Below are positions 1-27,078 of a stretch of 27,332 nucleotides of DNA, one piece after another. This DNA is from a virus, in IMG/VR virus record IMGVR_UViG_3300047551_002822, positions 1 to 27,332 of that record, one strand, 5' to 3'. The first letter of the stretch is position 1, and the number at the start of each line of letters is the position of its first letter. The position numbers and the translations under genes are program-made. The notes under the pieces are model-generated. The model was not told where the DNA came from. It was given only the letters and a program-made list of their open reading frames with translations, and did no database searches.

Positions 1-18
1 TTTCTAGGAGGTGTAAAG
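1..18 (+). repeat. Cassette repeat, copy A (right arm only, cut by window edge)
   Basis: The first bases read TTCTAGG-N3-TGTAAAG, which matches the right arm of copy D at 16710-16726 with identical internal spacing. The left arm would lie before the window. The same bases supply an AGGAGG ribosome-binding site for the gene starting at 18, so the resemblance could partly reflect a Shine-Dalgarno context (7048 and 7814 also have CTAGGAGGT). The exact TGTAAAG half argues for a true repeat copy. Confidence 0.5.
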
Positions 19-539
19 TGGCAGGGCCATTGCCAGTTATTAACGTTAGCACCGGGGAAACCTTTGTCAGTCTGGAGGAGGCGGGGCGCTCTATTGGTCG
101 TCGCGGTACTGAAATATCCAAAGCCATCGCCCTTGGGCATCGGTGCGGAGGGCATGAGTGGCGGTTTGCTCAAAAGTCCGTATCACCCCGGATTGGCCAC
201 GGGTCGGGTCGGAAGCGGCCGGTGCGGCGACTAGATACCGGGCAGTGCTTTCCTAGCGCCCAGGAGGCCAGCCTATCGCTAGGGACTGGATCAGCTACGT
301 TGGTGTGGATCGCTATTGCCATGGGGAGACGATGCGGCGGAACGTTTTGGGAGTATCTTGACAGCCCGCTTGACCCGCTTCCGGTGCGACGAGGGACACG
401 AATCCTCTGTGTTGAGACACGCATTGTTTACGATTCTGCCAGCGCGGCGGGCAAGGCGTTATTTGTTTCTGGGTCGGCTATCGGTAACGCCGCAAGGACT
501 GGCAAGACCTGTCTGGGCTACCACTGGCGAAGAATTTGA
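18..539 (+). CDS. Triple NUMOD1-like DNA-binding protein
   Basis: The 173-residue protein is built from three successive units of about 45-50 residues. Each has the pattern of a NUMOD1-type helix-turn-helix module of homing-endonuclease accessory regions: a short strand, a 'tGe.F.S..eAg..lg' stretch, then a helix and 'G..cGG..W'. The units lie near residues 7-50, 68-113 and 126-173. No HNH, GIY-YIG or LAGLIDADG nuclease motif is present, so it looks like a stand-alone DNA-binding protein or a nuclease that has lost its catalytic part. The GTG start is supported by AGGAGG six bases upstream. It sits between cassette repeats A and B, which suggests a mobile or exchangeable gene. The family call is by pattern and the function is unknown. 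Confidence 0.75.
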   Translation: MAGPLPVINVSTGETFVSLEEAGRSIGRRGTEISKAIALGHRCGGHEWRFAQKSVSPRIGHGSGRKRPVRRLDTGQCFPSAQEASLSLGTGSATLVWIAIAMGRRCGGTFWEYLDSPLDPLPVRRGTRILCVETRIVYDSASAAGKALFVSGSAIGNAARTGKTCLGYHWRRI

Positions 540-542
540 GCG

Positions 543-598
543 ACTTTACAGGCCCTAGAAAAAATTATTTTCAGTATGTGAAAAGCGGAGACTATTAG
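543..598 (+). repeat. Cassette repeat, copy B
   Basis: This is a 56-bp copy of the direct-repeat family: ACTTTACA, then CCCTAGA, an A/T-rich centre with AATTATTTTC, GTGAAAAG and finally AGACTATTAG. It ends exactly at the ATG of rusA, so its last 20 bases also serve as that gene's leader (GCGGAG as ribosome-binding site). Other copies are at 16157, 16684 and 26456, all in plus orientation and all between genes. Confidence 0.85.
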
Positions 599-955
599 AT
601 GAACTATGTCCTTGAATTAGAGGGTTGTGTCGTCCCCAAGGCGCGTCCACGGGGCAATAACAAAGGCACGTTTTATACCCAGACCAGCTACAGGCTTTGG
701 AAAGATGCGGCCATTGCTCACCTTAGAAAGCAACAACCCCCGCTCAAATTGTCAGGGGTTCGGCTCGATGTGGTGTTAGAAGGGAAACATTCCCGCCGGG
801 GAGATGCGGATAACATTATCGGGTCACTGATGGACGCCTTGGTGCAAGCCGGGATTCTAGCTAACGATAATCTGGTTTGTGTGACGGGGATTAGCCTGGA
901 GCTTAACTATAACCAGGACAACCCCAGAACCTATATTGCTATCTCGCCCGCTTAG
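599..955 (+). CDS. rusA: RusA-family Holliday-junction resolvase
   Basis: The 118-residue length is normal for RusA. The N-terminus has the family PKARPR motif (residues 13-18), and the core has GDADNII followed by LMDAL and ANDN. The acidic residues D69 or D71, D79 and D90 match the catalytic aspartates of RusA, which binds Mg2+ and cuts four-way junctions symmetrically as a dimer. In phages it resolves branched replication or recombination intermediates before packaging. The start abuts repeat copy B. The end overlaps the convergent DUF2163 gene by four bases. Confidence 0.9.
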   Translation: MNYVLELEGCVVPKARPRGNNKGTFYTQTSYRLWKDAAIAHLRKQQPPLKLSGVRLDVVLEGKHSRRGDADNIIGSLMDALVQAGILANDNLVCVTGISLELNYNQDNPRTYIAISPA

Positions 956-9386: not shown

Positions 9387-9860
9387 ATGATGGTTCCTGA
9401 AATCCTGTCTGTTATTATTGGTATCGCCGCATCGGCAACAGCTTGGGGTGCTAGGGGATTATGGGAAACCAAGCAAGAGATCGGGCGAGAGCGATTCCGG
9501 GCTGAATTGTCCGTCAAAATGCAAGAGTTTGTAAAAGTTGAGCTAGCGGAGTCATCCCAGTACGTCCAGGCGACCTTGGATCCCCTTAAGGAAGCCGTCA
9601 AGGAGGTTAAGTTTTCTTTCAAAGAAATCCAGGAAGACTTGGCGGAAATTCGGGACTCGATCAAAAATATTCGCTCCCGTGTTTCTGACATGGAATTCCG
9701 CCAGCAGGCCACTTTGGAGGTCTGGGATAGTGAACTAAGCGCGGTGCTGACGGCCGCCACGGGAAACCCCGTCTCCGTGGCGTTGTTCAGGAATGCTTGC
9801 AATATCAAAGACCAAACGCCTCCAAGGAATACTGAAAAGGATTCCCAGGAATCGCCTTGA
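9387..9860 (+). CDS. Candidate holin-like protein: one membrane helix and a long coiled coil
   Basis: Residues 4-23 form a hydrophobic segment (ILSVIIGIAASATAWGARGL). Residues about 28-110 are predicted to form a long coiled coil rich in Lys and Glu, followed by a polar tail. One N-terminal transmembrane segment plus a coiled coil is seen in hemolysin XhlA-like and accessory holin proteins, but an inner-membrane spanin or tail-chaperone role is also possible. It has no catalytic motif. The end overlaps the convergent thyX gene by 56 bases. A 191-residue frame on the opposite strand (9233-9808) is a shadow. Confidence 0.6.
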   Translation: MMVPEILSVIIGIAASATAWGARGLWETKQEIGRERFRAELSVKMQEFVKVELAESSQYVQATLDPLKEAVKEVKFSFKEIQEDLAEIRDSIKNIRSRVSDMEFRQQATLEVWDSELSAVLTAATGNPVSVALFRNACNIKDQTPPRNTEKDSQESP

Positions 9861-11463
9861 CCTGACTCAACATCTCCTTGGCGACAAGTCTGATCTCTAA
9901 TTGGGCGTGCTTGCTATTCCTTAAGCCCTGAAAGTGAACAAACGAGCGGAAGTTGAACTGAACATCGAAGTCTAACTGCTTGCTATAGGGCAGGAAGTAA
10001 CGGGCTGATTCTTTGGCTCGTTTACGCCCTAGGACTGGCGTTAGTTGCTTGACCGCCAAATGATAAAGCTGGTGCCCCATCCTGGCGTAGTGATCCAAGG
10101 CTTCTGCCCAGGAAAAACATTCGTTGTCGAACAGATAATGCTCCGCTTCTTCCCAAAGCGCGACCCCTTCCTCTTGGCAGTTAACACCAGGGTACAAAAC
10201 GTCAATACCCTCCCAATCTTTCGGGATATACCACTTGTCTTCTAACTCTTTATAGCGAGCCGATTCTGAGTTATGAACAATAAGTCCATTGCAGGTAAAG
10301 TTATGATAAGGGGACTCGACCTCTAGGTCATAAGTTCGTTGAATAGACACAAATTCCTTGTCCTTGATTGGGGCAAATACTGCTCTATTTTTTGGTGATC
10401 CTGCGTGAACACTAGAGCAAGCGTAGTCTTTTTTATTTTCTTCGTCTGTTCCCCAGGCTAAATTGCAGGCGCGATTGTCATAGGTTACGGAGTTAAGATG
10501 ACGCACCTGGGGTTTGCTATCTGGGTTTTCAACAAAGGCAAGCGCAACAAGCCTAGATACAAGATGCGCCTTTCCTTTGAGCGACACAACAAGCCGCCCC
10601 TGTTTGTTATCAACTTGTTCCTTGATTACAGGAGGTAAGTCCTTTCTTAAATAGCGATTTCTGTAATAAGAACGAATACGCCCCTGATTTGATACCTCAT
10701 AACCTTCTACATCCGTGGGTTTCCACACTTCACTATTTACATCGATCTCAGGACTTCTCCTTTGTTTATAGACGCTTAAGTCTGAAGTGTGGCGCTTTAC
10801 GGCCACTCGAATGTTTTGAACATATGCCTCTTCAATTGTCATCCACCCTGACTCCGTTAAAACCCGATGATTTTCAGTGCAAACAATGTCGTCACCTTCT
10901 ATCAAGTATCGGTAAGTTGGGTTCTCGCCTCTGTAAATCACATCGACTATATGGTTGGCAAAAAACTCTCCAGTATCTTCGTTGTAGGATTCAAGATTCA
11001 TTCCACGAATACGCTCTCGCTGATAAAGCATATCTTTTTGCGTATTTTGATGAGAGCGACCTTTGTTCCATCGACAAAATAACTCGTCAAGAGTCCAATT
11101 TAACTTACTCAGGCTCTCCCCGTTACTATTCCAAAACTGAATAGTATTGCTACCAGCAAGACAATTGATTGATACGCCAATACGGTGTTTTAAAAACTGG
11201 ATCTTTGTAGCCAAGTCCGTTCTCAGTTGAAAATGTAATGTGCTTTTTTCAAATGGGGTATGATGCCCATCATTTGCCAGCATTGTCAGCAATTCCTGGG
11301 GAGTTTTTTTCTTGGACTTTACCGTTTTATCGAACAATAGGTCGATACGGGAATTGATGTTTTTGGTGTAACTAAAATCAATCCCGGTAGATTGCCAAGC
11401 GCTTAAACAGTGCGTTTTATCTCCACCGTAATAGCCGATTAATGTTACTTTATTTTCTGCCAT
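9805..11463 (-). CDS. thyX: Flavin-dependent thymidylate synthase ThyX, interrupted by an intein
   Basis: The enzyme makes dTMP from dUMP using methylene-tetrahydrofolate and FAD. The precursor has 552 residues, but residues 101-398 are an intein; the joined exteins give 254 residues, a normal ThyX length. Extein residues around the junction read 'FLKHRIGVSIN' plus 'SESARYKELEDKWYIP', the ThyX signature region (RHR...S.R.Y), with Lys in place of the first Arg. The C-terminal part has 'RSFVHFQGLRNSKHAQLEIRLVAKEM', typical of ThyX. Start ATG 11463 has AGAGGAAA upstream. A terminator lies 28 bases before the start, so separate regulation is likely. ThyX is common in phages that replicate many genomes. 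Confidence 0.93.
   Translation of the reverse strand: MAENKVTLIGYYGGDKTHCLSAWQSTGIDFSYTKNINSRIDLLFDKTVKSKKKTPQELLTMLANDGHHTPFEKSTLHFQLRTDLATKIQFLKHRIGVSINCLAGSNTIQFWNSNGESLSKLNWTLDELFCRWNKGRSHQNTQKDMLYQRERIRGMNLESYNEDTGEFFANHIVDVIYRGENPTYRYLIEGDDIVCTENHRVLTESGWMTIEEAYVQNIRVAVKRHTSDLSVYKQRRSPEIDVNSEVWKPTDVEGYEVSNQGRIRSYYRNRYLRKDLPPVIKEQVDNKQGRLVVSLKGKAHLVSRLVALAFVENPDSKPQVRHLNSVTYDNRACNLAWGTDEENKKDYACSSVHAGSPKNRAVFAPIKDKEFVSIQRTYDLEVESPYHNFTCNGLIVHNSESARYKELEDKWYIPKDWEGIDVLYPGVNCQEEGVALWEEAEHYLFDNECFSWAEALDHYARMGHQLYHLAVKQLTPVLGRKRAKESARYFLPYSKQLDFDVQFNFRSFVHFQGLRNSKHAQLEIRLVAKEMLSQVKAIPGNPFQYSLEAFGL
10270..11163 (-). mobile_element. Intein with NUMOD4/HNH homing endonuclease inside ThyX
   Basis: The intein spans residues 101-398 (298 aa). 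It begins with Cys (CLAGSNTIQF, block A), has block B 'CTENHRVLT' near 195-203, and ends with 'TYDLEVESPYHNFTCNGLIVHN' (blocks F and G), followed by Ser as the +1 nucleophile. All residues needed for splicing are visible. Residues about 245-347 hold a NUMOD4 module ('WKPTDVEGYEVSNQGRIRS') and an HNH-type region ('VRHLNSVTYDNRACNLAW'). The usual VHRL before it reads VSRL here, which might weaken activity. It sits in the most conserved active-site motif, a classic homing target. Confidence 0.9.
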
Positions 11464-11989: not shown

Positions 11990-12265
11990 CTACTCCCCTA
12001 AAATAGCTTTTCCTTTTTCGGTCAGGATATAGCGGCGATTGGTTACATAGCGTGTCCGGTAACCGTTATATGCGCGGGACAATTGCTTTCGCTCACTAGA
12101 AACGAGTTGCAGTATCCCCGCAGTCGTCAGTCCCTTAAGCGTGTTTTGGTTGCACTCAGTTAACCAATCGCTAATGTCCTTTTCCGACATTTGCATTCCC
12201 AGTCTGGCAATTCTGCCGATTTCAAGCTTTAGCTCATTGATGACCTGTAGCTGATTTGTTTTCAT
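11990..12265 (-). CDS. Putative small winged-helix DNA-binding protein
   Basis: The start is set at ATG 12265 (MKTNQLQV), not at the longer frame from 12331, because the longer version would contain the -10 box and leader of its own promoter. The 91 residues form helices with 'SEKDISDWL....QNTLKGLTTAGILQLVS' and then 'RYVTNRRYILTEKGKAILGE', the strand-turn-strand ending of winged-helix proteins ('Y.LT.kG...l'). The DNA-binding role is an inference. An AGAGGA ribosome-binding site is present. It heads the operon that ends near thyX. Confidence 0.7.
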   Translation of the reverse strand: MKTNQLQVINELKLEIGRIARLGMQMSEKDISDWLTECNQNTLKGLTTAGILQLVSSERKQLSRAYNGYRTRYVTNRRYILTEKGKAILGE

Positions 12266-12295
12266 TCCCGTATCCTCTCTGTGTGGCATATAAAT

Positions 12296-12324
12296 AATAT
12301 AACAAGGGCGACGGAGGATGTCAA
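12296..12324 (-). promoter_or_regulatory. Sigma70-type promoter, module copy 1
   Basis: On the minus strand TTGACA (12324-12319), 17 bases, TATATT (12301-12296). The leader after it contains CCACACAGAGAGGA, shared with the promoters at 16595 and 26988. It drives the 12265 gene. Confidence 0.88.
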
Positions 12325-12353
12325 CCACCACAGAGAATTTTTTTTAGGCGAGC

Positions 12354-14965: not shown

Positions 14966-15661
14966 ATGAAAGATAATAACATCGCTAAAGCCGTCCGCGT
15001 CGGAATCAGTTTGGGCGCTATCCCCTTGAATGTTTACCAAATGCCAAGCGGAGTTTATAAATTGGCCGGGCGAAATGTGACGGATGCCATTGAAAAGCAT
15101 GATTCAAGCCTGCGTGAAATAATGGGCGTAAAATCGCTGAAAGCCTTACCCCACGCGGATCAAGCCCTGCTTGAAGTTCGTGCCGACTCTGGTGAGAAGT
15201 TTATCCCAGTAGCAATAGAAGATGCTGTTTCCTATTGGGCGATCATGGCTCAAAAAGGGAATCAAAAGGCTGTTGCTATCCTGGCGGCCTGCGCCATCGA
15301 AGCCATAGAGCGACGGGCGGACAAGGCGCTAGGAATCATGGTGTCTGAACAAGAGCGCGACGCCCGCATGGAATTGCGTATGAAGCGAATTGCAACCCGT
15401 CGCAAATGGACGGATGCCCTTAAGGATCGTTATGTCGCCTTGCATGGTGTGGAGCCTTCCCCAGAGCAATACCGAGAATGGACGGTCAAGGCTAACGAGG
15501 CGCTATTTTCCCGAAAGCATTTTAAGTGTGACCGGGACAATATGACCGAGACGGAACAGCACATCATTGAGTCCTTTGAATTCCTCTGCTGTCGGTGGGC
15601 GGGCAAATACGACAGTAAGGAGCCGGATGAAATCTTAGAAATGGTCTTGGATACCTTTTAG
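14966..15661 (+). CDS. Antirepressor-like phage protein of cyanobacterial type
   Basis: The 231-residue protein begins with a small beta-rich module ('IPLNVYQMPSGVYKLAGRNVTDAIEKHDSSLREIMG'), then 'PVAIEDAVSYWAIMAQKGNQKAVAILAACAIEAIERRADKALG'. The latter pattern, residues moving through a region 'W....a.KGN..A..l' followed by 'A.ErR', is typical of Bro/KilA/Rha-like antirepressors, where a DNA-binding part precedes an alpha-helical one. The remainder is helical and basic. AAGGA precedes ATG. The assignment rests on pattern alone; a regulator of the lytic switch is the most likely role. Confidence 0.55.
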   Translation: MKDNNIAKAVRVGISLGAIPLNVYQMPSGVYKLAGRNVTDAIEKHDSSLREIMGVKSLKALPHADQALLEVRADSGEKFIPVAIEDAVSYWAIMAQKGNQKAVAILAACAIEAIERRADKALGIMVSEQERDARMELRMKRIATRRKWTDALKDRYVALHGVEPSPEQYREWTVKANEALFSRKHFKCDRDNMTETEQHIIESFEFLCCRWAGKYDSKEPDEILEMVLDTF

Positions 15662-16156: not shown

Positions 16157-16212
16157 ACTTTACACCCCCTAGAAATAATTTTTTCTAGAGAGTGAAAAGA
16201 GGATCGTATTAA
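16157..16212 (+). repeat. Cassette repeat, copy C
   Basis: The copy begins ACTTTACACCCCCTAGA, continues with AATAATTTTTTCTAG and GTGAAAAG, and ends with GTATTAA. It shares its first 17 bases with copy E. Together with copy D it brackets the minus-strand gene at 16249-16566 and its promoter. Confidence 0.85.
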
Positions 16213-16248
16213 GCGGCTAGGTGGGGCTCAAGCCTCTCCCTAAAGAAT

Positions 16249-16566
16249 TTATCCGGCGTAATGCTCTAGGTGCCGGGATAGCTCCAAGCATTCCTGATCG
16301 TGAGACTCAACCCGTAGCCCCTTGCTGTCCAGCACTAACTGGTACTTGTCGAGAAGGCAAGGAGTGAAAACAAAGCTGATTTCTTGGTTCCCCATCTCCG
16401 GGGTGTAGGCAAACATATCAACACAGTCCAGATACTTGCAAAGCGTTTCCCAGAGTGCGCTGGCTTTTTCGGATAGGGTAGCATCCGTCTCCTCGATGGC
16501 TTTGACTTTCTTGGCTTTGTAAAGACTGACTCCGAGTAGCAGACTGATTTGGGTTTGCGTGTTCAT
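16249..16566 (-). CDS. Hypothetical protein in a repeat-flanked cassette
   Basis: The start is ATG 16566 (MNTQTQISLLLG); the longer frame from 16662 contains the promoter and is rejected. The 105-residue protein is helical at the N-terminus and has cysteines scattered through 'LCKYLDCVDMFAYTPE' and 'FTPCLLDKYQLVLD', with no metal-binding spacing I recognise. It lies between repeats C and D and is the only gene there, with its own promoter. Function is unknown; an accessory gene of the cassette type is inferred. Confidence 0.7.
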   Translation of the reverse strand: MNTQTQISLLLGVSLYKAKKVKAIEETDATLSEKASALWETLCKYLDCVDMFAYTPEMGNQEISFVFTPCLLDKYQLVLDSKGLRVESHDQECLELSRHLEHYAG

Positions 16567-16594
16567 TTGCGTTTCCTTTGTGTGGTATGTAAAT

Positions 16595-16623
16595 AATATA
16601 ACAAGGGTTATGGGAAAAGTCAA
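16595..16623 (-). promoter_or_regulatory. Sigma70-type promoter, module copy 2
   Basis: On the minus strand TTGACT (16623-16618), 17 bases, TATATT (16600-16595). The last spacer bases (CCTTGT) and the following leader (ATTTACATACCACACAAAGG) match the other two modules. Confidence 0.88.
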
Positions 16624-16683
16624 GCCTTTTTCCTGGGAAATCTCAGAATTAGCCCAAGCCATTGCCGCGCAAGGGTTTCAGCG

Positions 16684-16740
16684 ACTTTACACATCCTAGA
16701 TAAAAGATCTTCTAGGGACTGTAAAGCCCAGACCATTAGA
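16684..16740 (+). repeat. Cassette repeat, copy D
   Basis: This copy is the most symmetric: ACTTTACA-N2-TCCTAGA on the left and TCTAGGGACTGTAAAG on the right are near-inverted arms around AAGATC. It ends AGACCATTAGA, like copy E. It lies between the divergent 16566 and 16793 genes. Confidence 0.88.
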
Positions 16741-16792: not shown

Positions 16793-18028
16793 GTGCCTAT
16801 GTTGGAAGTTCAACAAATCGAGTTGTCAAAGCTCAAGCCGTACCCCGGCAATGCCAAGAGTCACCCCCAAAGTCAGATCGATCTACTGGTGAAACAGATT
16901 GCCGAGGGATTCGATCAGCCCATTGTGGTGGATAAGGATTTTGTCATCATCAAGGGTCACGGGCGACGGATGGCCGCCATGCAGATGCAACTGAAAACTG
17001 TCCCGGTGATCGTGAGGGATGACCTGACACCCCAGCAAGTCAAAGCCGCCCGGATTGCGGATAACAAGCTGGCTGAGACGGATTGGGATATGGAGTTATT
17101 GGCGCAAGAACTGGAAGCCCTGGACGCCGGTGGCTATGACCTGGGGGATCTGGGGTTTGATGAATCCGAACTAGAAAGCCTACTGGGTGATCTTCAGGAT
17201 GATGGGGGAGACCTGGAGGACTTGGGGGAGGTTGAGGAGGACGATTATGAGATCCCGGAACAGATAGAAACAGATATTGTTGTTGGCGATCTATTTGAGA
17301 TTGGCCCGCATCGGTTGCTGTGTGGCGATAGCACCAAAAGCGACAATGTTGCTCGATTAATGAATGGACAAAAGGCGGACATGGTATTTACGGATCCACC
17401 ATACAACGTATCGTATGAAGGCGGAAGTAAAAAAAGAACAGCTATACAAAATGACAATATATCAAACTTTTATTCGTTTCTTTACGATTTTTACTTTAAT
17501 TGTTTTTCTGTAATGAATGATGGAGCACCGATTTATGTTGCACACTCTGAGTTAGAAAGGGTTAATTTTACATCGGCTTTTCTTGATGCTGGATTCAAAT
17601 TATCTAGCATCATTGTTTGGGTAAAGAATAATGCTACATTTTCCATGAACAAAGACTACAAGTGGCGACATGAGCCAATCTTGTATGGATGGAAACAAGG
17701 AAGGACACGGATTTGGAGTGCAGGCAACACAGAGGATACAGTTTGGAATATTGATCGCCCAGTGAGGAGCGATGAACATCCTACGATGAAGCCTGTTGAT
17801 TTGTGTGAAAAGGCTATAGCCAATAGCTCTGTTAGTGGCTCATTGGTTTACGAGCCATTTTGTGGCTCCGGATCGACCATGGTTGCGGCGCATCAACTTA
17901 GACGTAAATGCTATGCAATGGAGTTGGATCCAAAATATTGTCAGGTTATCTTAGAAAGAATGATCGCACTAGACCCGTCTTTGACTGTCTTAAAAAACGG
18001 GAAAGATGTAACCGAGCAGTTTAAATAG
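16793..18028 (+). CDS. ParB-domain / N6-adenine or N4-cytosine DNA methyltransferase fusion
   Basis: Residues about 1-95 are a ParB/Srx-like domain ('LSKLKPYPGNAKSHP', 'IIKGHGRRMAAM', 'RIADNKLAE'). A very acidic linker (about 110-158) leads to the methyltransferase: LLCGDS (175-180), DPPY (201-204, motif IV), then YEPFCGSGST (353-362, motif I, AdoMet binding). Motif IV preceding motif I marks the beta class. This architecture is common in phages and prophages. Likely roles are protection from host restriction or epigenetic control. A GTG at 16793 and ATG at 16799 are both possible starts. The methyltransferase half is much more A/T-rich than the ParB half. Confidence 0.9.
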   Translation: MPMLEVQQIELSKLKPYPGNAKSHPQSQIDLLVKQIAEGFDQPIVVDKDFVIIKGHGRRMAAMQMQLKTVPVIVRDDLTPQQVKAARIADNKLAETDWDMELLAQELEALDAGGYDLGDLGFDESELESLLGDLQDDGGDLEDLGEVEEDDYEIPEQIETDIVVGDLFEIGPHRLLCGDSTKSDNVARLMNGQKADMVFTDPPYNVSYEGGSKKRTAIQNDNISNFYSFLYDFYFNCFSVMNDGAPIYVAHSELERVNFTSAFLDAGFKLSSIIVWVKNNATFSMNKDYKWRHEPILYGWKQGRTRIWSAGNTEDTVWNIDRPVRSDEHPTMKPVDLCEKAIANSSVSGSLVYEPFCGSGSTMVAAHQLRRKCYAMELDPKYCQVILERMIALDPSLTVLKNGKDVTEQFK

Positions 18029-18035
18029 ATAGAGC

Positions 18036-18076
18036 AAAAGGCGGGAATGACCCCGCCCTTGCAAATGTTTGACTAT
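18036..18076 (-). terminator. Hairpin of the pair ending minus-strand transcripts, copy 1
   Basis: A GGCGGG/CCCGCC stem (18040-18057) reads on the minus strand as a terminator followed by TTTTGC; the flanking AAATGTTTGACTAT is shared with the element at 19461-19504. It could end transcripts from the 18604 gene, or serve the methyltransferase transcript as a bidirectional hairpin. Confidence 0.6.
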
Positions 18077-19460: not shown

Positions 19461-19504
19461 TATTAAAAGCGGGAGAGATCCCGCTTCTCAAAATGTTTGA
19501 CTAT
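19461..19504 (-). terminator. Terminator after the Rha-like gene, copy 2 of the hairpin pair
   Basis: A 7-bp stem (AGCGGGA with TCCCGCT, GAGA loop, 19468-19485) is followed on the minus strand by TTTTAAT. It lies seven bases past the stop of the 20158 gene and is flanked by the same AATGTTTGACTAT as the element at 18036. Confidence 0.82.
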
Positions 19505-20552: not shown

Positions 20553-20810
20553 ATGGCGAGTCCAATGAAGGTAAAAAAGGTCATTACCAAAGAGGTGGAG
20601 GTTTCCGGCTTGGGTGGGAAAATCCGGGAGGCTAGGATGTCCTTGCCCAGGAGTGGAAAATCGCTTGAGGCTTTGTGTGGAGAGGTCGGGATTTCTCGCA
20701 CTTACTGGTATGACATTGAGAAAGAGCGAATCAAGGGCGCGTTATCGTTTGAACTTTTAAGATCTATCGAATCCGCCCTTGGTGTAGACTTGGGGGTAAA
20801 AATCGAGTAA
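20553..20810 (+). CDS. XRE-family HTH repressor, candidate switch regulator
   Basis: The 85-residue protein has a Cro/C1-type helix-turn-helix at about residues 20-80: 'IREARMSLPRSGKSLEALCGEVGISRTYWYDIEKERIKGALSFELLRSIESALGVDL'. It is shorter than full repressors and lacks a protease or dimer domain. It is transcribed from the plus-strand switch promoter, so it may bind O1 and/or O2 and autoregulate. The ribosome-binding site is weak. A lipoprotein gene follows after four bases. I infer it keeps the phage quiet or limits Rha expression. Confidence 0.82.
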   Translation: MASPMKVKKVITKEVEVSGLGGKIREARMSLPRSGKSLEALCGEVGISRTYWYDIEKERIKGALSFELLRSIESALGVDLGVKIE

Positions 20811-26455: not shown

Positions 26456-26512
26456 ACTTTACACCCCCTAGAGAGAATTATTTCTAGCAACAAAAAAGCC
26501 TAGACCATTAGA
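26456..26512 (+). repeat. Cassette repeat, copy E
   Basis: It begins ACTTTACACCCCCTAGA, continues GAGAATTATTTCTAG, and ends TAGACCATTAGA like copy D. It lies after the terminase and before the minus-strand gene at 26561-26956, which is controlled by the same kind of promoter as the gene between copies C and D. Confidence 0.88.
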
Positions 26513-26560: not shown

Positions 26561-26956
26561 TTACTCAAACCAAGACCAGATTTCTTCCATTGTGATGATG
26601 TCTGGGCTAGCTTCTTGCGGTTGCGGCTCCTCCGCCTTTAGGTAGCAGGGGTAGCGGTAAGATTCCTCGGCGGCGGCAATGGCGCGGGTCAGGTCGCCCC
26701 ATTGGCTCTTTTTGGTGCGGGCCATGCTGACGTATCCATCAACTTCGATTGCCATCATTTCGCGCTCTTCCCGGCGCGTTCGGGTGTTAATCACTTGGAT
26801 TGCGGTAGTGAGCCGCATCTCAACATTATGACGAGCATTGAAGTCCTGGATAGCTTCAACCACAGATTTCTTGGTGGCGCGGCTAGCGGTTTCGTTCAGG
26901 ATGAGGTCTTTCAGGTTGTCGCTGTTGAAGTTGGTGATGTCGATGATGGCGGTCAT
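26561..26956 (-). CDS. Hypothetical protein in a repeat-linked cassette
   Basis: The start is ATG 26956 (MTAIIDITNF); the longer frame from 27040 contains the promoter. The 131-residue protein starts with a mixed alpha/beta stretch ('NLKDLILNETASRATKKSVVEAIQDFNARHN'), then 'AIQVINTRTRREEREMMAIEVDGYVSMARTKKSQWGDLTRAIAAAEESYRYPC', and an acidic, proline-rich tail. No family is recognised. The basic central part might contact nucleic acid. It has its own promoter and terminator and lies right next to repeat copy E. Confidence 0.72.
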   Translation of the reverse strand: MTAIIDITNFNSDNLKDLILNETASRATKKSVVEAIQDFNARHNVEMRLTTAIQVINTRTRREEREMMAIEVDGYVSMARTKKSQWGDLTRAIAAAEESYRYPCYLKAEEPQPQEASPDIITMEEIWSWFE

Positions 26957-26987
26957 TGGTTGCTTCCTCTCTGTGTGGTATATAAAC

Positions 26988-27016
26988 AATATAACAAGGA
27001 TAAACAGAAAAGTCAA
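26988..27016 (-). promoter_or_regulatory. Sigma70-type promoter, module copy 3
   Basis: On the minus strand TTGACT (27016-27011), 17 bases, TATATT (26993-26988), followed by GTTTATATACCACACAGAGA and GGA. The 5' leader is nearly identical to that of the 12265 and 16566 genes. Repeats lie just upstream (27021-27078). Confidence 0.9.
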
Positions 27017-27020
27017 GCCC

Positions 27021-27078
27021 CTTCCCCAAATCTTCCCCACTATTTTGGGAATTATGGGAAAAATGGGAAGTATGGGAA
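27021..27078. repeat. TTCCCCA repeats and an exact 9-bp tandem array
   Basis: 27021-27042 holds two CTTCCCCA-type units. 27043-27078 holds four tandem 9-mers ending TGGGAA (TTTTGGGAA, TTATGGGAA, AAATGGGAA, GTATGGGAA) with no gap. The block sits directly upstream of promoter module copy 3. It has the look of an operator array or iterons. It is non-coding; plus-strand open frames through it are shadows. Confidence 0.88.

Follow-up and report, generated by a model that had tools for sequence, protein, structure and literature searches.

What is the role of a short repeat that recurs between the genes of an uncultured phage, and does it mark places at which single genes have been exchanged? We analyzed a 27,332-base sequence (the window), complete as an IMG/VR record but only a fragment of a phage genome, so that the copy number of the repeat refers to this fragment only. 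A first-pass annotation of the sequence had described four full copies and one partial copy of a direct repeat around an imperfectly palindromic core. The repeat family is real: the window contains four full copies (B to E) and a truncated copy at its left end (A, Table 1). Profiles calculated from three full copies recovered the fourth in every combination, with scores of 30-35 bits (E 1e-8 to 1e-10); no match above 11 bits arose in 100 shuffled windows. Copy A was recognized by its exact right arm. The full copies share the consensus ACTTTACA-n3-CCTAGA-n10-TCTAG-n4-TGTAAAG/TGAAAAG, and the sequence AGAC(C/T)ATTAGA follows in three of the four, with a weaker version at copy C. Across the full copies, the core is a 42-bp imperfect palindrome, CTTTACA-n3-CCTAGA-n10-TCTAGG-n3-TGTAAAG, which is formed best by C and D. 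TTCAG replaces TCTAG in copy B, and the last arm of copy E is degraded.

Table 1 Repeat copies and adjoining features of the window
Feature	Position	Strand	Details
Copy A	1..18		Right arm alone, the rest lost at the contig end; TTTCTAG-n4-TGTAAAG, matched exactly here and at no other place in the window
Gene between A and B	18..539	+	173-aa protein; three repeats resembling NUMOD1, recognized by eye; Pfam match to NUMOD1 below cut-off (E 0.04)
Copy B	543..599	- (presumed)	Abuts the RusA start codon at 599; leave-one-out E 1.4e-9
RusA-like resolvase gene	599..955	+	Pfam RusA E 9e-14
Copy C	16157..16213	- (presumed)	Adjoins the 3' end of gene 16249-16662 (minus strand); leave-one-out E 1.9e-9
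Accessory gene without clear family	16249..16662	-	Between C and D
Sigma-70-type promoter of gene 16249-16662	16595..16623	-	TTGACT-17-TATATT, predicted from sequence
Box of copy D	16659..16682	-	CTGAAACCCTTGCGCGGCAATGG; aligns with the CCTTAcggggTAAGGG box of the relatives
Copy D	16684..16740	-	Palindrome upstream of box and promoter
DNA methyltransferase gene, ParB-like N-terminal domain	16793..18028	+	Palindrome side of D
Copy E	26456..26512	- (presumed)	Between the 3' end of terL and the 3' end of 26561-27040; leave-one-out E 3.5e-10
Accessory gene beside E	26561..27040	-	Promoter TTGACT at 27016, of the type also found at the C-D gene

The gene contexts were as annotated, with A and B bracketing one gene, C and D bracketing another together with its promoter, and E lying beside a third gene, which does share its promoter type with the C-D gene. 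The similar A-B and C-D spacings (about 570 and 527 bp), to which the annotation had drawn attention, are probably a coincidence. A Pfam search of the protein encoded between A and B found no nuclease domain. The C-D gene more likely starts just past its promoter and leader than at the listed ATG at 16662. Only copy D has a clear box and promoter in the window, and none were seen at B, C or E. Copies C and E sit between convergent gene ends, near terminator-like sequences.

A third promoter of the same sigma-70 type precedes gene 11990-12331. The promoter and leader are conserved at 12268-12334, 16567-16633 and 26960-27026, and the three minus-strand genes that follow are unrelated. Part of this promoter/leader is similar (81% over 56 bases) to a leader of Synechococcus phage ACG-2014f, the sole hit when element and cassette DNA was searched against collections of phages and plasmids; the element itself had no match there.

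We searched for related phages. The nearest relatives by terminase are contigs at 56-57% identity (G002/G006, G003, G004 and G005), and G002 and G006 represent one phage over about 42 kb. Genes in these contigs were called with a simple script. Portal and capsid queries gave no closer relatives of the window phage, and exact and degenerate patterns of the window's repeat found none in IMG/VR and GTDB genomes outside the known contigs. Thus, the repeat-pattern, portal and capsid searches found no relative close enough for a comparison of the window's own cassettes. A terminase profile retrieved only two distant proteobacterial MAG fragments from the GTDB genomes. The best annotated phage relatives by terminase, such as Acinetobacter Ab105-1phi, show about 40% identity, and the window portal matches phrog_146. 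The motif GCGATCGC characterizes many cyanobacterial genomes. It is abundant in the relatives, whose three large contigs contain 28, 49 and 33 copies where about 0.4-0.5 would be expected, but the window has 0 copies. The hosts are therefore putative; the lineage of the window phage and its relatives probably infects cyanobacteria.

A single profile identified 21 distinct intergenic elements in G002/G006, G003, G004 and G005; one of them, at G005 6029, is weak (16.9 bits), and no clear copy was seen in G001. The elements consist of a widely spaced inverted repeat and a box around GTAAGGGTTT, often followed by a sigma-70 promoter with leader and a short gene. The box side faces the 5' end of a co-oriented gene in 17 of the 21, and a TTGAC lies within about 30 nt of the box in 11 of them by hand count. 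Both orientations occur within one genome. The annotation had offered a late promoter as one possible function; the promoters that adjoin the elements are of sigma-70 type and mostly precede short accessory genes.

When the window alone was searched with the relatives' profile, copy D gave a minus-strand match (16725-16659, E 3.8e-4). This match lies just upstream of the C-D gene's promoter, at a distance from it similar to that in the relatives; there was no comparable match to B, C or E. The proposed homology between the two sets of elements is based on this one 62-column match. The half-sites are 28 bp apart in the window, compared to 24-25 bp in the relatives. In the relatives, the arm that adjoins the box varies less than the other, and the corresponding arm is the better conserved one in the window. 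The copies had all been assigned to the plus strand; their common orientation stands, but the relatives' profile reads D on the minus strand, and the directions given for B, C and E are taken from D and are presumptive.

Gene order reveals gene exchange around the elements of the relatives. At the PhoH, SSB-like, protease/scaffold and dnaN-side positions, G002 and G003 have a conserved gene on the palindrome side and different genes on the box side, and the same was seen at the dCTP deaminase position between G002 and G005. Two box-side genes recur behind other neighbors (G002 22939 with G003 12115, and G002 37713 with G003 8536). From the dnaN-side gene to the sigma-factor gene, G003 contains two additional genes as well as a terminator-like sequence beyond the element, whereas the same site in G002 is empty, with element and promoter and no gene. 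The copies are also more alike within a genome, with a mean identity of 72-74% within G002 or G003 versus 60-67% at matching positions between them (p 0.0016, labels shuffled over all G002 and G003 copies). The annotation's view of the repeats as cassette borders is therefore upheld in the relatives by box-side swaps, recurring genes and an occupied/empty site; for the window's own cassettes, no close relative was found. Gene order registers shuffling near the elements, which differs from crossover within them. We infer that crossovers took place inside the elements and that exchange also occurred in the window's own lineage. The gene at L058:1217-1945 (G002) contains a sigma-70 region 2 and is preceded by an element in G002.

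We considered whether the palindrome acts as DNA or as RNA. The palindromes of the relatives are 34-38 bp long, and only their outer 5-7 bases pair consistently. RNA families searched with the repeat gave no match. The mismatches between arms (11 G-T and 26 A-C in the final count) speak against a stem on the element strand and are compatible with a stem on the other strand. Bidirectional terminators or RNA stem-loops that insulate neighboring genes would fit the position of C and E between convergent genes near terminator-like sequences, and also the folding of C, D (both strands), the plus strand of E and one G002 copy, all of which fold better than shuffled sequences. However, the folds of B, the minus strand of E and the tested G003 copy do not surpass those of shuffles, the palindromes are not followed by a T-run, and about 7 outer base pairs and no more are kept in most relatives, and we regard this function as very unlikely. 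Because only the outer half-sites pair consistently and several hairpins are no more stable than shuffles, the sequences point more to a DNA dyad recognized by a protein than to a terminator or an RNA stem.

We consider it probable that the elements are regulatory junction elements, combining a protein-binding DNA dyad with an early promoter, which also serve as homology for the shuffling of modules. The core would be a DNA inverted repeat with half-sites of TTGCA, TTTCA or TTACA type about 24-28 bp apart, most likely bound by a dimeric, sequence-specific protein from the phage or its host. The bound protein would control the sigma-70 promoter past the adjacent box, and perhaps also the gene on the opposite side; a promoter is recognizable by sequence at D and at about half of the relatives' copies. 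With so many similar copies in the intergenic regions, accessory genes may have been exchanged, inserted and removed through homologous recombination at the elements. Gene conversion could keep the copies of one genome alike, as could their co-evolution with the binding protein. Alternatively, the elements may be dispersed operators of one phage repressor or activator, similar to stoperators and without a role in recombination, such that the differing neighbors merely reflect the need of accessory genes for regulated promoters. The conserved half-sites and dyad layout, the nearby promoters and the concerted change between phages are all consistent with such operators, as is a window HTH protein (20553-20810) that matches a phage regulator family and whose gene is a candidate regulator gene. 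On their own, operators do not explain the recurrence of a gene behind different elements or the occupied/empty site, and the location of C and E between convergent gene ends also counts against them. We view this as possible but doubtful.

The annotation had further suggested a recombinase target or a homing site. On such a reading, a phage recombinase or endonuclease would cut the palindrome and move single-gene cassettes. The relatives' palindromes, at 34-38 bp, have a length common among tyrosine recombinase sites, the cassettes at element sites differ, and G002 and G003 encode a tyrosine recombinase (PF00589), the only such match among the contigs. However, the recombinase gene adjoins a different, unique palindrome, AGAAGTTCT...AGAACTTCT, at L059 about 11257-11365 (G002 29257-29365). 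A search of all contigs found no resolvase (PF00239), and the window, an incomplete genome, matched neither PF00589 nor PF00239. Copies in both orientations within one genome would moreover be unstable. Active site-specific recombination or homing at the elements is thus highly improbable, and the suggestion of a recombinase target is not supported. The AGAAGTTCT...AGAACTTCT palindrome has a counterpart in G003 near 15150 and could be the tyrosine recombinase's own core site. Integron attC sites were also considered and set aside, since a genome can hold elements of either orientation and the contigs yielded no integron-type integrase. We find it unlikely that a dedicated phage protein recognizes the palindrome, actively directs module swaps and co-evolves with all copies; if true, phages would possess a programmed system of cassette exchange that differs from integrons and from the passive recombination of promoter-early stem-loop (PeSL) cassettes.

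The annotation knew of no described element with this layout. There are relatives in kind, namely PeSL cassettes, ESAS repeats, the intergenic repeats of HF2 and the HGTV-1 motif. The PeSL cassettes of T4-type phages, reportedly described by Arbiol 2010 and Comeau 2014, are the closest in behavior. Our elements are nevertheless not PeSL, since they have no terminator-like stem-loop and the phages are unrelated, with PeSL defined as in papers that cite the original descriptions. In the accounts of PMC4503421 and PMC3950731, PeSL are mobile regulatory cassettes of T4-type phages. As far as these accounts go, both are intergenic and repeated, contain an inverted repeat and mark the shuffling of accessory genes. 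PeSL join the inverted repeat to a sigma-70-type early promoter; here, promoter-like sequence accompanies copy D and about half of the relatives' copies, and none was seen at B, C and E. PeSL-type modular shuffling at the elements is present in the relatives by gene order. The differences, on the same accounts, are that the palindromes of the window and its relatives are not terminator-like, a defining feature of PeSL (no T-run, several folds equal to shuffles), that the phage group here is not T4-like (closest annotated terminase about 40%, portal phrog_146), that several window copies have no promoter, and that the copies here differ between genomes in a concerted manner. The SAS/ESAS repeats of Cluster K mycobacteriophages are imperfect inverted repeats tied to a 13-bp GGGATAGGAGCCC at the translation start (PMC3203893). 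Like our elements, ESAS occur repeatedly upstream of a subset of genes as imperfect inverted repeats, with a spacer that varies and one better conserved arm; they stay with the same gene families (PMC3203893), whereas the box-side gene changes in our elements. The 13-bp GGGATAGGAGCCC was not found in or after the window copies.

The halovirus HF2 has 58-bp repeats between genes that were shown to carry promoters (PMC8707807). Related viruses retain both these repeats and their locations (PMC8707807), in contrast to the junctions of changed gene content seen here. The HGTV-1 motif, as far as PMC3950731 recounts it, combines a promoter with an inverted repeat and has a suggested role in regulation and shuffling; the likeness is one of layout, an inverted repeat adjoining a promoter, and the virus is archaeal. 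Mycobacteriophage stoperators are likewise protein-binding sites dispersed in large number across the genome (PMC9283540), as our elements may be. They are asymmetric with a known repressor, while the sites here are dyads with a putative binder. If the elements are regulatory junctions that double as homology for shuffling, the PeSL principle that regulatory elements are recombination seams would extend to an unrelated, uncultured phage lineage. The comparison offers as support one side conserved and the other exchanged, an occupied/empty pair, and concerted change of the copies in each genome. It would also provide a testable link between phage regulation of accessory genes and their acquisition.

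Other repeats and insertions were observed in these genomes. A second direct repeat of the window, 40 nt long and 78% identical, is hairpin-like, ends in ATGTTTGACTAT and occupies 18037-18076 and 19465-19504. Two of the relatives contain arrays of degenerate 5-base units, at L003 6416-7207 (GTCNN-like) and L005 11753-12805 (AACTC/GACNN-like). At 9805-11463 of the window, the thymidylate synthase ThyX is split by an intein with NUMOD4 and HNH domains.
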